A DNA stretch of 64,000 nt from Desulfonema magnum (GTDB lineage Bacteria; Desulfobacterota; Desulfobacteria; Desulfobacterales; 4be13). The stretch lies in the NCBI RefSeq assembly GCF_017377395.1, contig NZ_CP061800.1, positions 1,860,001 to 1,924,000 of the forward strand, in the 5' to 3' direction. Shown here piece by piece: positions 14,185 through 35,891 of the stretch; position 1 is the stretch's first letter; each line of letters opens with the position of its first letter. Both the position numbers and the translations under genes were made by a program. Below the pieces are notes generated by a model that worked only from the letters and a program-made list of their open reading frames with translations, was not told the DNA's origin and did not search any database.

Positions 14185-15003
14185 ATGAGCAATATTGTTA
14201 AAATAGAAAACATTTCGATTGGGCATGGTTTTCCCCTTGTTCTGATATCAGGTCCGTGTGTGATAGAAGATTATGAAACGACCTATGAAATCGCCTCATT
14301 TCTCAAAGACCTTACCCAAAAACTGGAAATCCCCTTTATTTTCAAGGCATCCTATGACAAAGCCAATCGGACATCCATCCGCTCTTACAGGGGACCCGGG
14401 ACAGAGGCCGGGCTTGAAATTCTTTATCGTATCAGGACAGAACTTGATGTCAAGATACTTTCAGATGTTCACAGAATAAATGAGATTGACGCGGCCGCCA
14501 AAGTGCTGGACATCATCCAGATTCCTGCTTTTTTATGCCGGCAGACAGATTTTATTTTAGCTGTTGCAAAAACAGGGAAACCTGTTAATATTAAAAAAGG
14601 TCAGTTTCTCGCGCCGTGGGATATGATAAATGTGGTGGAAAAAGTGACTTCCACAGGAAACAAGCGGATTCTGGTCACGGACAGAGGAACAATGTTCGGA
14701 TACAATAATCTGATCGCAGATTTCCGCGGTATAAAAATCATGCAGGATGCAACAGAATACCCGGTCATATTTGACGCGACACACAGTGTCCAGCTTCCCG
14801 GAGGGTCCGGGACCCGTTCCGGCGGGCAGCGGGAATTTGCCCCGATTCTTGCCAGAGCGGCAGTTGCCTCAGGCGCGGACGGTATTTTTTTGGAAGTTCA
14901 CAAAGAACCTGACAAGGCCCTTTGTGACGGACCCAATTCATTAAGGCTGGATATGCTTCATGAATTATTTTCCCAGCTGAAAGCCATTAAAGAGGTGCTA
15001 TGA
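14185..15003 (+). CDS. kdsA: 3-deoxy-8-phosphooctulonate synthase (Kdo-8-P synthase)
   Basis: 272 aa. It condenses PEP with arabinose-5-phosphate to Kdo-8-phosphate, the precursor of the inner LPS sugar Kdo. Seen: LISGPCVIEDYETT, FKASYDKANRTS, RSYRGPG near residue 70, DVHRINE, and the KKGQFLAPWDM and DATHSVQLPGG blocks. It lacks the CxN signature of metal-dependent enzymes: the KASYDKANR motif carries asparagine, as in the metal-independent class. The last 4 bases overlap kdsC (ATGA). It is the first gene of the LPS block. Confidence 0.95.
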   Translation: MSNIVKIENISIGHGFPLVLISGPCVIEDYETTYEIASFLKDLTQKLEIPFIFKASYDKANRTSIRSYRGPGTEAGLEILYRIRTELDVKILSDVHRINEIDAAAKVLDIIQIPAFLCRQTDFILAVAKTGKPVNIKKGQFLAPWDMINVVEKVTSTGNKRILVTDRGTMFGYNNLIADFRGIKIMQDATEYPVIFDATHSVQLPGGSGTRSGGQREFAPILARAAVASGADGIFLEVHKEPDKALCDGPNSLRLDMLHELFSQLKAIKEVL

Positions 15004-18846: not shown

Positions 18847-19587
18847 ATGGCAACATTATCTCTCAGAAATCTGGTCAAAATTTATCATGGAAGGCAGGTG
18901 GTGAATTCTGTCAGTCTGAACGTTGAAAGCGGGGTTGTCGCAGGGCTTCTGGGGCCGAACGGGGCAGGTAAGACCACGACGTTTTATATGGCTGTGGGAA
19001 TGGTGAGACCGGACGGAGGTCAGGTTTTTCTTGACGATGAAGACACCACGAACTACCCTATGTATCTGAGGGCACGCAAAGGCGTGGGGTATCTTCCCCA
19101 GGAAACTTCGATTTTCAGAAAACTGACTGTGAAACAGAATATCATGGCGATTCTTGAAATTGTGAAACTGGGCGATGAAAGACACATTTCAAAATCAGAA
19201 CAGAAAGATCGCGCGGACAGGCTGCTGAATGAACTTGGTATCAGACATCTTGCGGATCAGAACGCCACTGTGCTTTCAGGGGGGGAACGCAGACGTCTGG
19301 AAATCGCCCGCGCACTTGCCACAGATCCGTGTTTTATTCTTCTGGACGAACCATTTGCAGGGGTGGACCCTCTTGCAGTCATTGACATTAAAAACATTAT
19401 CGCACATCTGAGACAGCGGGAGATCGGGGTTCTTATTTCCGACCATAATGTAAGAGAGACACTGGGAGTGTGTGATAACGCATACATACTAAGTGACGGA
19501 AAAATAATTGAATCCGGGTCCCCGGAAAAGATAGCGTCAAGCCAGACTGCCCGGCGTATTTATTTAGGGGATGAGTTCAGGTTGTAA
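18847..19587 (+). CDS. lptB: LPS export ABC transporter ATPase LptB
   Basis: 246 aa. Walker A GPNGAGKTTTFYM (near 38), Q-loop PQETSIFRKLTV, signature LSGGERRRLEIARAL (near 140), Walker B CFILLDEPFAGVDP and H-loop ISDHNVRET are all intact. It powers LPS extraction from the inner membrane with LptFG. No Shine-Dalgarno sequence is evident; the leader has CAGATCACAAATCACAAA repeats. The gene is separated from lptA by the HEPN cassette. Confidence 0.97.
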   Translation: MATLSLRNLVKIYHGRQVVNSVSLNVESGVVAGLLGPNGAGKTTTFYMAVGMVRPDGGQVFLDDEDTTNYPMYLRARKGVGYLPQETSIFRKLTVKQNIMAILEIVKLGDERHISKSEQKDRADRLLNELGIRHLADQNATVLSGGERRRLEIARALATDPCFILLDEPFAGVDPLAVIDIKNIIAHLRQREIGVLISDHNVRETLGVCDNAYILSDGKIIESGSPEKIASSQTARRIYLGDEFRL

Positions 19588-32302: not shown

Positions 32303-33130
32303 CAGATCGAAAATTTTTTCCGGACATCGAAAATTTTTTCCGGAGTGCAAAAATTAAGCGAAGCGGTTTTTTGCATCAGATCGAAAATTTTTTCCGGACA
32401 TCAAAACTTTTTTCCGGAGTGCAAAAATAGAGCGAAGCGGTTTTTTGCATCAGATCGAAAGTCTTTTCCGGACATCGAAAATTTTTTCCGGAGTGCAAAA
32501 ATTAAGCGAAGCGGTTTTTTGCATCAGATCGAAAGTCTTTTCCGGACATCGAAAATTTTTTCCGGAGTGCAAAAATTAAGCGAAGCGGTTTTTTGCATCA
32601 GATCGAAAATTTTTTCCGGAGTGCAAAAATTAAGCGAAGCGGTTTTTTGCATCAGATCGAAAGTCTTTTCCGGACATCGAAAATTTTTTCCGGAGTGCAA
32701 AAATTAAGCGAAGCGGTTTTTTGCATCAGATCGAAAATTTTTTCCGGACATCAAAACTTTTTTCCGGAGTGCAAAAATAGAGCGAAGCGGTTTTTTGCAT
32801 CAGATCGAAAATTTTTTCCGGACATCAAAACTTTTTTCCGGAGTGCAAAAATAGAGCGAAGCGGTTTTTTGCATCAGATCGAAAGTCTTTTCCGGACATC
32901 GAAAATTTTTTCCGGAGTGCAAAAATTAAGCGAAGCGGTTTTTTGCATCAGATCGAAAGTCTTTTCCGGACATCGAAAATTTTTTCCGGAGTGCAAAAAT
33001 TAAGCGAAGCGGTTTTTTGCATCAGATCGAAACTTTTTTCCGGACATCAAAACTTTTTTCCGGAGTGCAAAAAACCGCTTCGCTCTATTTTTGCACTCCT
33101 TTTGTGCCGAAGATTTTTCGATCTGCTGAG
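32303..33130. repeat. 74-bp tandem array, eleven units
   Basis: Units start at CAGATCGAAA at 32303, 32377, 32451, 32525, 32599, 32653, 32727, 32801, 32875, 32949 and 33023; spacing is 74 except one of 54. Each unit has two CGAAAAT/CTTTTTTCCGG segments, then GGAGTGCAAAAAT, AGCGAAGCGG and TTTTTTGCAT, a small hairpin. The last unit closes with an inverted hairpin (GGAGTGCAAAAAACCGC and TTTTTGCACTCC) and CGATCTGCTG, the inverse of CAGCAGATCG at the start. Long frames over it (e.g. 32282-32707) are not genes. Confidence 0.95.
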
Positions 33131-33469
33131 TTTGGCAATATTTCCGATGTCCGGAAATCGGTATATCTTGCCAAACTGAAAGTTTGGCACTCCGAATAAT
33201 TTACATAACCCGGTTATCAGAAAATGTCCAGCTTCAGAACACCGCCGTATTTTTGTTTACCCTGTTTTTTAATACTATCAGGCTGATTTTAAGCTAAAAT
33301 ATAAAAATTAAGAAAAAAAACTGTCCTGTATGTCAAACATTTTCTTAATGCAGCTAAAACTTATTGAACTTATTTGTTCATTTTGTTATGCTCAATTTGT
33401 CAGACAGACCATGACAAAAAAGATTTCTGAACTTTTTATAATTTTTTAAAAAAGATACTTGCCTGAGCA
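33131..33469. other. intergenic leader before the ECF sigma gene
   Basis: No gene is seen. AAAATGTCCAGCTTCAGAACACC (33222-33244) resembles one arm of the GTGTTCTAAAAC element. The rest is A+T-rich and includes runs such as TTATAATTTTTTAAAAAAG just before the start, which may hold the promoter. Confidence 0.5.
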
Positions 33470-34045
33470 ATGGATAAGAATATAAATGAAACTGCTTCAT
33501 CCGATCAGGATGCCGCACAGGTCAGGGCCTTTCAGAAAGGGGACAAATCCGGATTTGACAAGCTTGTCCTCAAATATAAAGACAACGTGTTTAATATGTG
33601 TTATTATCTGTTCGGAGATTATTCCGAAGCAGAAAACTGCGCCCGGGAAACATTTCTGAATCTGTATGAGGATATAAAAGATTTCAGATTCAAAACAAAA
33701 TGTTATATACTTATTTATCAAATTGCGGTCAGCGTGTGCAACAGCAAACTCAAAAGACTCAGCACGCGGAAAATGAATCTGCTGAATGATATTGAAGCAT
33801 CAGAAGCATCTGATGACAATTCTTTAAGCGATTCTGAAACAAAAGACCGGTCCGAGGCTATCCGGCAACAAATCAGCTCATTGCCCTCGGATACAAGGCT
33901 TCTGCTTGTCCTGCGTGACATCCAGGGACTCTCGAGCGAGGATATCGCGGAAATTACCGCTTTAAAAGTCATTGCTGTAAAGTCGGGGCTTTTCAGGGCA
34001 AGGGATATGCTCAGAGAAAAATTAAAAAGAAAGAATGTGATATAA
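33470..34045 (+). CDS. ECF-type RNA polymerase sigma factor
   Basis: 191 aa. Sigma region 2: AFQKGDKSGFDKLVLKYKDNVFNMCYYLFGDYSEAENCARETFLNLYE (residues ~20-68). Region 4 with HTH: LPSDTRLLLVLRDIQGLSSEDIAEITALKVIAVKSGLFRARDML (~143-185). A 40-residue acidic serine linker (EASEASDDNSLSDSETK) separates the two. No region 3, as for ECF factors. The anti-sigma-Wzz gene starts 1 base after its stop, so the pair is coupled. Confidence 0.92.
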   Translation: MDKNINETASSDQDAAQVRAFQKGDKSGFDKLVLKYKDNVFNMCYYLFGDYSEAENCARETFLNLYEDIKDFRFKTKCYILIYQIAVSVCNSKLKRLSTRKMNLLNDIEASEASDDNSLSDSETKDRSEAIRQQISSLPSDTRLLLVLRDIQGLSSEDIAEITALKVIAVKSGLFRARDMLREKLKRKNVI

Positions 34046-34046
34046 A

Positions 34047-35891
34047 ATGGAATGCGCCAAGGCCAGAACACTGATGTCCGAATATATTGACGGGTCCGCG
34101 GATACGCAAACAACAAAAGCGTTAAAAGCCCATCTTGCGGAGTGCGAAAAATGTAAGAAAACATTTTTCTCATTAAGAACATTAGTTAAGGAACTTGGCT
34201 CCCTGGAAGCTGCCAAAGCCCCGGAAAATTTTCTCGACAGGCTTCATGAAGAAATGGTCCCGAAATTCGAGTTCGGAGAATTCATACGAAACCTGTTTTT
34301 TCCTCCGCATGTCCGTCTCCCTTTTTTAACGTGGCAGCGCCGCTGGTTTCTCATTCTTCCGTTTTGTCTCTGCATGATCGCGGGGATGTATATTTCAATG
34401 GCAACACCGAAAATTTACAGCGTAAGCACATTAATTCTGGCTGACCCTAAGACCATATCTGACGAATATATTCAACCGATTACAGAACTGCTTGTCCGAC
34501 AACGATTAACCACCATCACACAGGAGATAAAAAGCCCCAAGTATATTAAACAGGTGGTAAAAGAAGCAGGACTCTTTTCAGCCCCGGAATACAGACAGAT
34601 GCGCCCTCATGAGAAAATTACCGAGGTGCGTAAGAACCTGTCTGTGAGCATGACAAAATTCCAAGGCGGAACAGATTCTTTCAGAATCTCACTCAAAGGA
34701 AAATATCCTGAAAAAATTACACAGGCGGTGAACCTTCTGGCAACTTATTTTATTCGTGAAAGCATCAGAATCATGGAGGAGCAGGTTGCCGAAGCCAGTC
34801 ATTTTTTTCAGGAGGAAATTAAGGAAAAAGAGAAGCAGCTCACAGGGTTCGGAAACATCATCGGGGAATACCGTAAAAAGCATTTGAAAAGCCTTCCTGA
34901 ACAACTTGGTTCCAATCTGAACATGCTTGCAGGATTTCGGAGACAACTGAATGCAAAGCAGGAAAGCCTTAAAGATGAAAAAATCAGACAGATCCGGCTT
35001 GAGGGCCAGATGGAGGAAATCCAATGGGAACTGGAAAATTATGTGCCTGAGACGCAGCCTCCCGAGGCGGTGCCCGACCCCCCGCGGGAATCAGCAGATA
35101 TGTCAGCATTAAAGCGGCTCAGGAAGCAGTATGAAGTGCTTATGAGCCGATATACACAGCAACATCCGGATATGATCAGACTGAAAGAAAAAATTGCTGA
35201 ACTTGAGGCAAAAATTGTAAATGAATCACAAAAAAAGGTCGAAGTTCCGGTTCCTGAAAATCCAGAAAACAAAACCGATCTGGCTGCTGCCAAATATAAA
35301 TTTACAAAAGAAAATCAGCTTAAAGAAATAAGGCTGCAATATGAGTCTGTCCGAAAAACGATCCCGCGGCTTGAGACTGACATCTCAGGGCTGCATAATA
35401 AAATAAGTGAATACGAGAAGCGGATAGATGAGACACCCATAAGGAAACAGGAAATTGCAGTGCTGGAGAAAGAATATAAGGATATTCAGGAGTCCTATGA
35501 TTCGCTGTTAAAAAGAAAACAGGACACAGATATTGCCATTCTCAGGGAAAGAAAATCAAGGGCCAGACGTTTCCGTATTCTGGATACGGCCGACGTTCCT
35601 CAGCATCCTGTGTGGCCGAACGTAAAGCGGTTATTTATTTTCTCTGTGAGCGCGGGTCTGCTGGTGGGGTTCGGACTGATTTTTTTACTGGAAATTTATC
35701 GAAGATTTTATAATGTCGTCGTATTCCGGCCCCAAAGCGGGGCAGGGAAAATACTCAGTCAGACCGTGACTTTTGTTTCAGTCCTGACAGCGTTTATCCT
35801 GTTTTTCGGGTTCTCCGTACTGGCTTTGAAGGAGACAGCGTATAATATGGGAGCTGTGGGAGAAGTTGTTGAAAAATTTTTAAGGTTCTGA
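34047..35891 (+). CDS. anti-sigma zinc finger fused to a Wzz/GNVR polysaccharide co-polymerase
   Basis: 614 aa. Residues 1-40 form a ZAS zinc finger with ligands C3, H29, C33 and C36 (HLAECEKC). After ~60 residues, two membrane segments (about 105-125, RWFLILPFCLCMIAGMYIS, and about 530-553, LFIFSVSAGLLVGFGLIFLL) enclose a long periplasmic region. That region is a Wzz fold start (YSVSTLILADPKTISDEY), a coiled coil (~235-490) and a GNVR-like stretch (EKEYKDIQESYDSLLKRKQDTDIA) ending DVPQHPVWPN. A third hydrophobic segment lies near the C-terminus. This is the plan of chain-length regulators, with a cytoplasmic anti-sigma head added. Inferred: polymer length or flux is read by the co-polymerase and passed to the sigma factor. 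Confidence 0.85.
   Translation: MECAKARTLMSEYIDGSADTQTTKALKAHLAECEKCKKTFFSLRTLVKELGSLEAAKAPENFLDRLHEEMVPKFEFGEFIRNLFFPPHVRLPFLTWQRRWFLILPFCLCMIAGMYISMATPKIYSVSTLILADPKTISDEYIQPITELLVRQRLTTITQEIKSPKYIKQVVKEAGLFSAPEYRQMRPHEKITEVRKNLSVSMTKFQGGTDSFRISLKGKYPEKITQAVNLLATYFIRESIRIMEEQVAEASHFFQEEIKEKEKQLTGFGNIIGEYRKKHLKSLPEQLGSNLNMLAGFRRQLNAKQESLKDEKIRQIRLEGQMEEIQWELENYVPETQPPEAVPDPPRESADMSALKRLRKQYEVLMSRYTQQHPDMIRLKEKIAELEAKIVNESQKKVEVPVPENPENKTDLAAAKYKFTKENQLKEIRLQYESVRKTIPRLETDISGLHNKISEYEKRIDETPIRKQEIAVLEKEYKDIQESYDSLLKRKQDTDIAILRERKSRARRFRILDTADVPQHPVWPNVKRLFIFSVSAGLLVGFGLIFLLEIYRRFYNVVVFRPQSGAGKILSQTVTFVSVLTAFILFFGFSVLALKETAYNMGAVGEVVEKFLRF

Follow-up and report, generated by a model that had tools for sequence, protein, structure and literature searches.

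The window analysed here, a stretch of 64,000 nucleotides of the Desulfonema magnum genome (assembly GCF_017377395.1, contig NZ_CP061800.1, positions 1,860,001 to 1,924,000 of the forward strand), carries a two-gene operon in which an extracytoplasmic function (ECF) sigma factor is paired with a predicted membrane anti-sigma protein; in the latter, a polysaccharide co-polymerase (PCP) of the Wzz/Wzc type, the probable new sensor, has apparently taken the place of the usual periplasmic sensor with its single helix. Taken as a whole, this explanation is about evenly poised between right and wrong. The sensor exchange itself, within an ECF/anti-sigma pair, is supported by the sequence comparisons, and a circuit that would run from polymer to transcription is what we infer beyond it. 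The sigma gene (33470..34045; 191 residues, RpoE/SigW-like by its Pfam matches and its relatives in the PDB, with a diverged region 2.3) precedes the gene of a 614-residue fusion between a zinc-binding anti-sigma (ZAS) domain and a PCP (34047..35891), recognised by zf-HC2, GNVR and TIGR03007 matches and by a second protein of the same architecture, P0003. Both genes, like every feature of the operon given below, lie on the plus strand; the ATG of the fusion at 34047 is located one base past the sigma stop codon, so that an ECF sigma gene directly adjoins the fusion as that of a cognate partner would. A preliminary description of this DNA had already placed the two genes and the one-base gap correctly.

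The fusion opens with a ZAS core (residues 1-44; 34047..34178) in which H29, C33 and C36 form the H-x3-C-x2-C signature and C3 supplies the fourth zinc ligand upstream, an arrangement also found in P0003; zf-HC2 matches residues 3-36 at 33.8 bits (Pfam cut-off 22.2). The ZAS domain of RsiW (PDB 5wuq) aligns with residues 8-66 (E 0.0021), and the RsrA model TIGR03988 matches the N-terminus with only 30.2 of the 62.5 bits set as its cut-off. A linker in the cytoplasm, continued by a membrane-proximal stretch (together residues 45-93; 34179..34325), where homology to non-fused anti-sigma proteins mostly stops, leads to the PCP module (residues 94-614; 34326..35888), which is defined by the TIGR03007 match, the PCP tree and Foldseek. 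Hydropathy indicates three hydrophobic helices: TM1 (residues 101-119; 34347..34403), TM2 (residues 529-547), which is preceded by a proline-rich stretch and belongs to the GNVR domain (residues 467-547; 35445..35687; 31.2 bits, Pfam cut-off 27.7), and TM3 (residues 576-594; 35772..35828), placed also by alignment and motif count. TIGR03007, the chain-length determinant of XrtA systems, covers residues 95-555 at 196.7 bits, below its equivalog cut-off of 278.85, and Pfam Wzz stays at 21.4 bits, under its cut-off of 25.5; the PDB sequence of Wzc matches residues 442-552 (E 1.3e-6). The AlphaFold model of the fusion, built with 22 sequences (mean predicted local distance difference test score, pLDDT, 79.8; predicted template modelling score, pTM, 0.47), presents the ZAS as a confident helical domain (pLDDT blocks of 83-92 over residues 1-50) and the periplasmic part as PCP-like. 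When searched with Foldseek, this model found PCPs or their complexes (Wzc, WzzE, FepE, KpsE and Wzz) at ranks 1-39 of the best 50, with Wzc at rank 1 and 21 of these matches at E <= 0.001, the TM-scores being low for all; rank 40 is a coiled-coil Rad50 complex. Two membrane helices, TM1 and TM2, thus flank an alpha-helical periplasmic domain of the PCP fold. The intact zinc finger, its agreement with ZAS models (zf-HC2, RsiW and, below cut-off, TIGR03988) and its fusion to a Wzz-type PCP, which the preliminary description had proposed, are therefore borne out.

Protein searches, scored on the 7,999 candidates with most words in common, yielded one other full-length fusion among these best candidates: P0003, also 614 residues long, is 46% identical over 98% of the length and retains all four zinc ligands. 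The fusion is thus neither an artefact nor unique, since a second protein has the same architecture and the same ligands, and the suspicion that it might be confined to one genome falls. That an error of assembly or gene calling fused two genes could be argued from P0001, a separate record of the same protein that is identical over about 345 residues, departs from the frame at a run of C (window positions 35078-35083) and stops at 354 residues; this departure is either a sequencing difference or a variable tract, that is, a real variant. However, P0003 reproduces the fusion independently, in full and with the same 614 residues of length, and the window lies within a single 8.03-Mb contig, so that the artefact is hardly credible and was rejected. 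Between the two fusions, the ZAS core (29/44 identical residues, 66%) and the junction (residues 81-100, 15/20) are better conserved than the linker (residues 45-80, 10/36) or the PCP part, at 44-48% in three segments of residues 94-547 and 37% (23/63) in residues 548-614. These values also bear on a signal that would enter at the zinc site, redox or metal, with the PCP serving merely as a membrane anchor or a platform for oligomerisation: RsrA is a redox-sensing ZAS protein and its model matches the N-terminus, albeit below cut-off, but for an anchor alone one would not expect a PCP of 520 residues to keep 37-48% identity and a complete fold, which makes this alternative highly improbable.

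The ZAS half belongs to a family of sigma-linked proteins that otherwise lack a PCP. Queries with residues 1-110 matched 30 of the 389 genomes sampled in the order and 41 of the 395 in the phylum, two samples that overlap; past residue 96, the window's own gene alone matched in both. A class-level search drew 389 genomes with the same leading matches as the order-level one and added nothing independent. In the order search, 25 of the 31 matches finish at residues 93-96 and five at 65-71, the remaining one being the window itself. The full-length query matched 51 of 96 relatives, and a match from residue 1 to 614 was found in the window's own gene only. The fusion is rare, being present in one of the 389 genomes sampled in the order. 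A scan of contigs with the fusion alignment, limited to two ZAS patterns, gave 45 stretches matching one of them; a single one of these, in a contig from Ignavibacteria, codes for a relative, namely a short ZAS-like stretch (residues 12-38). Pfam scans of ten ZAS relatives detected zf-HC2 in every one, in one case slightly below cut-off, but neither Wzz nor GNVR at E <= 0.5; sub-threshold similarity to DUF4349 or DUF2275 occurs in several, and one (L047, genome G003) has DUF3426 above cut-off. A sigma gene on the same strand lies directly upstream at 39 of the 43 ZAS loci examined, which are part of the matches, the phylum search having listed more; the four loci that lack it are L066, whose contig provides no more than 158 bases upstream, and three loci of the window's family, L038, L083 and L086. 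In the relatives' sigma-ZAS pairs, the ZAS protein is 27-54% identical to the fusion over the aligning part of residues 1-93.

Three candidates for further fusions or their remnants were discarded: the anti-sigma protein of G007 (L045), aligned over residues 1-181 or 1-262, has zf-HC2 but neither Wzz nor GNVR in Pfam; a few other non-fused proteins aligning to residues 97-136 with the full-length query or BLASTP showed no PCP domain in those scanned; and a match in G004 (L048) that extends upstream of the start through a stop codon has no ZAS or sigma remnant upstream. A second ZAS architecture occurs in the window's family, in which L038 (G000:C1:2287.8-2289.8 kb, the genome of the window) and L047 combine a ZAS with a long acidic stretch and one helix; L047 adjoins a sigma gene, while L038, L083 and L086 do not.

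According to hydropathy, five non-fused ZAS proteins have one helix each, located far from the N-terminus in L038 and L047. This favours regulated proteolysis, in which the PCP would sense the state of the envelope or polymer and be cut, freeing the sigma factor together with a ZAS fragment, as the usual substrates of site-1 and site-2 proteases are single-pass anti-sigma proteins. With its three hydrophobic helices, however, the fusion departs from the single-pass architecture on which such proteases usually depend, and we regard cleavage as decidedly unlikely.

The origin of the PCP half was traced with a tree of 48 rows (47 different) from BLASTP matches with at least 380 aligned positions among the loci and proteins collected, shorter ones being dropped. 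The two fusions pair (support 96/94) and nest in a seven-row clade (100/99) with L048, L050 and L099-L101. The sister group of this clade consists of 11 XrtA-type PCPs, in a tree whose bootstrap had not fully settled. After TM2, the motif RRPEDIE is present in all 11 XrtA-type rows (10 different) and in none of the seven rows of the fusion clade; among the other 30 rows, the strict pattern gave one near form and variants are many. In the alignment, the fusion has no counterpart between TM2 and TM3 to the whole RRPEDIE...IPVLATIP segment of XrtA-type PCPs; the fusion clade lacks the kinase-linking segment of its sister PCPs. L048 and L050, which have no ZAS, may either have preceded the fusion or have lost the ZAS later. 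The genome of the window also possesses an XrtA/exopolysaccharide (EPS) cluster at C1:1.15-1.18 Mb, with a PCP, kinases, a sugar transferase, an export protein, EpsI and an exosortase (XrtA and TIGR03013 above cut-off, the export protein below), whereas the window operon sits at C1:1.894 Mb. The PCP of that cluster scores 276.0 bits with TIGR03007 (cut-off 278.85) and is 51% identical to residues 94-550 of the fusion. The fused PCP has neither the TIGR03007 score nor the cluster location of an XrtA-system PCP and is distinct from the PCP of this cluster. Near the five non-fused clade members, ten frames were scanned, of which one is a Glycos_transf_4 (at L101, about 3.6 kb from the PCP) and the rest are unrelated or unnamed. 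The proposal in the preliminary description of an export machine signalling its own state is consequently unsupported as written: the fused PCP does not come from the XrtA/EPS cluster, its clade is without the kinase-linking segment, and most of the five non-fused members lie away from polysaccharide genes. What stands of that interpretation is the fusion and the identity of its ZAS domain.

Two other loci of the same genome were noted beside this cluster and its PCP. L054:8058-9614 (G000:C1:5406.1-5407.6 kb) encodes a PCP extended at its N-terminus by about 150 residues, a near relative of the XrtA-cluster PCP minus its central part. At L053:13083-16784 (G000:C1:1182-1186 kb), beside the XrtA/EPS cluster and on the opposite strand, three genes encode a sigma-70-like protein (198 residues), a zf-HC2 protein (209 residues) and a CHAT-domain protein (665 residues).

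The sigma factor contains regions 2 and 4 only, both above family cut-offs, as in ECF (group IV) sigma factors: Sigma70_r4_2 scores 46.5 bits (cut-off 25.7), Sigma70_r2 25.5 bits, barely above its cut-off of 24, and TIGR02937 61.6 bits (cut-off 42.9). Its nearest relatives in the PDB are sigma-H, SigW and sigma-E. The stretches of regions 2.3 and 4.2 compared here read the -10 and -35 elements, respectively; in region 2.3, five of the nine residues of the sigma-E sequence TWLYRIAVN differ (ILIYQIAVS in the window), whereas region 4.2 retains the FRAR of sigma-E. For Sigma70_r2, the sigma factors of L047 and L039 reach 41.3 and 64.2 bits. L047 has a sigma end branch of 1.06, well beyond the median of 0.22, and its pairing with the window sigma was flagged as a possible long-branch effect. 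A structural model of the sigma factor computed without an alignment was poor (pLDDT 57) and was not used.

Upstream of the sigma gene, between 150 bases before and 60 bases after its start, 29 of the 39 sigma-ZAS operons carry GGAAC-N14-18-TGTC[TC], a motif that we take to resemble RpoE promoters, and five more carry a relaxed form; neither form was found in this region of the remaining five, namely the window, L047, L075, L085 and L095. In 12 genomes, GGAACNTT-N9-14-TGTCTAA gave 13 matches, distributed over eight genomes, versus eight for a backwards control, so that the positions of the matches and not their number are informative. Six of the 13, in six genomes, lie 36-53 bases before a VIT-VWA-like frame; for one of these frames, the VIT and VWA models scored above cut-off and TIGR03788 gave 317 bits, below its own cut-off, while two match that frame at 68-73% identity and three were judged by eye. 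Five others are sigma promoters also counted in the operon survey, and two lie 3' of a ZAS gene with no called 60-residue frame within 200 bases. None of the other four genomes in the window's family has a match. The window's own genome has one versus 15 for the backwards control, about 21 kb from its VIT-VWA gene and neither before that gene nor at the sigma gene. VIT-VWA genes persist in G000 (the own genome), G001, G002 and G004, and no motif occurs in the upstream bases read at them (72 bases only for G004). In front of the window operon, a possible diverged ECF promoter with a -35-like TGAACTT but no TGTCTAA at -10 can be discerned in the sequence at 33428..33458. The window-specific candidate TGAACTTTTT-N14-19-GATAC has one other match in the genome, inside a coding gene, which leaves this promoter unproven, and a scan for sigma-70-type sites gave seven versus 6.1 expected. 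Since both the promoter motif and the VIT-VWA target of the relatives are missing at the window, the regulon of its operon has likely been rewired.

Two side observations concern these promoters and targets. At L108-L120 (genomes G069, G052, G018, G019, G024, G213, G201 and G414), the sigma-ZAS operon and a VIT-VWA gene of the marine sortase target-like kind share GGAAC...TTGTCTAA, and the relatives' sigma start codon lies a few bases past the -10 element, so that the transcript may be leaderless. The VIT-VWA gene of the window's own genome (G000:C1:6593623-6595076; L129, L130) is split across two frames, with a TGA within the match.

A rewired regulon raises the question as to whether the pair still functions, or whether its sigma factor, like the ZAS arm, is a decaying remnant of the relatives' VIT-VWA regulon, the fusion protein now acting as a PCP only. 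This relic is unlikely but constitutes the strongest rival because the sigma factor evolves fast and the promoter motif is missing: the end branch of the window sigma is 1.6 versus a median of 0.22, Sigma70_r2 barely passes, the motif is gone upstream and falls genome-wide to the single match against 15 for the control, and ZAS-less PCPs of the same clade occur in the family. Against decay, both genes are fully open, the sigma-E residues FRAR are retained in region 4.2, and the ZAS core, with its four ligands, is more conserved than the PCP (66% versus 37-48%, a comparison of two sequences).

In the preferred explanation, that of a PCP acting as sensor of an ECF/anti-sigma pair, the ZAS domain would bind the adjacent sigma factor in the cytoplasm. 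Wzz and Wzc proteins assemble into rings; if the PCP part of the fusion did likewise, several ZAS domains would be gathered beneath one periplasmic cage. The engagement or departure of the polymer, or of an export partner such as Wzy or Wza, might then alter the assembly, rearrange the ZAS domains and free the sigma factor. That the state of the PCP might set sigma release is proposed because Wzz/Wzc proteins form such rings and because the single helix of the relatives has given way to three. As the fusion has three hydrophobic helices instead of one and no kinase-linking segment, the ZAS is likely to stand in for the tyrosine kinase as cytoplasmic output. The fullest version of this proposal, a PCP ring that has become a transcriptional sensor, with sigma-binding zinc fingers replacing the tyrosine kinase, an assembly state that sets ECF sigma activity and an RpoE-like pair that left the VIT-VWA regulon and exchanged its sensor, is advanced tentatively and is more doubtful than probable.

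Several observations weigh against a functional PCP sensor. Only two fusions are known, and P0003 is known here from its protein alone; a search with the fusion alignment did not find the fusion in the other four genomes of the family, which are 53-94% complete; and the frame of P0001 departs at the C-run. The window sigma is fast-evolving and its region 2 weak. With the full-length query, some non-fused relatives align on to residues 97-111, and that of G007 to 181, which makes the joint less sharp in that search. The position of the ZAS relative to the PCP in the AlphaFold model is uninformative, because the pTM is only 0.47. No polysaccharide gene was detected among the immediate neighbours of the operon that were scanned with family models, the scans covering part of the window frames. 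Finally, the regulon of the window sigma was not found, and no promoter common to EPS genes was seen, albeit without a systematic scan upstream of EPS genes.

As regards the surroundings, a stretch of tandem repeats and a gene for an aldolase/short-chain dehydrogenase lie on one side of the operon, and a Uma2 gene and a transposase-like frame on the other. The earlier remark that polysaccharide genes are not adjacent thus holds for the immediate neighbours scanned; the nearest surface-polysaccharide genes identified in the window are those of KdsA (14185-15003) and LptB (18847-19587), 14-19 kb upstream of the operon. A tandem array with a period of about 74 bases (ATCGAAAATTTTTTCCGGAGTGC...) occupies window positions 32303-33073, 5' of the sigma operon, and can be read as open frames.

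In terms of known systems, the operon resembles the pairs of an ECF sigma factor with a ZAS membrane anti-sigma protein, of the class of RsiW, RskA and ChrR/RsrA, which we take to be ZAS-type anti-sigma proteins, in that directly after the sigma gene comes one for a zf-HC2/ZAS protein containing a transmembrane helix; it differs in its extracytoplasmic part, where a PCP that brings two additional hydrophobic helices stands instead of a single-pass sensor. With the PCPs of XrtA/PEP-CTERM systems (TIGR03007), which have a separate tyrosine kinase, the fusion shares the PCP fold, GNVR and the proline-rich stretch before TM2, but it scores below the TIGR03007 cut-off, lies outside an EPS cluster, lacks RRPEDIE...IPVLATIP and has gained an N-terminal ZAS. 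Like Wzc and other bacterial tyrosine (BY) kinases, it combines a PCP and a cytoplasmic output module in one chain; its predicted output is an N-terminal sigma-binding finger, whereas that of a BY-kinase is a C-terminal kinase. An anti-sigma protein with a polysaccharide-related outer domain is also known in RsgI, whose outer domain deals with polysaccharide. In the SigI/RsgI system of cellulolytic clostridia, which is anti-sigma-based (PMC6056542), the sigma and anti-sigma proteins are from other families and external polysaccharide is sensed, whereas a PCP is a component of the cell's own polymer assembly. A topical literature search, which did not extend to the main ECF reclassification, returned no description of a ZAS-PCP fusion in the portions of text it covered, and a term search found Wzz unmentioned in PMC8103513 and PMC8999054. 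The closest comparison is the sigma-ZAS/VIT-VWA (TIGR03788-like) module found in relatives from this order and phylum, where sigma factor and ZAS are homologous to those of the window, but where the anti-sigma protein has a single helix and weak DUF4349/DUF2275 similarity, the promoter is GGAAC...TGTCTAA and the target is VIT-VWA.

To our knowledge, it is mostly an open question by what means bacteria follow the assembly of their surface polysaccharides and adjust gene expression to its progress. If the proposed reading is true, a single protein would link the chain-length cage to a sigma factor and make such feedback from polysaccharide assembly directly testable. The operon would also provide a traceable example of possible ECF rewiring, in which the sensor has been swapped, the shared motif is gone and the sigma factor is diverging.

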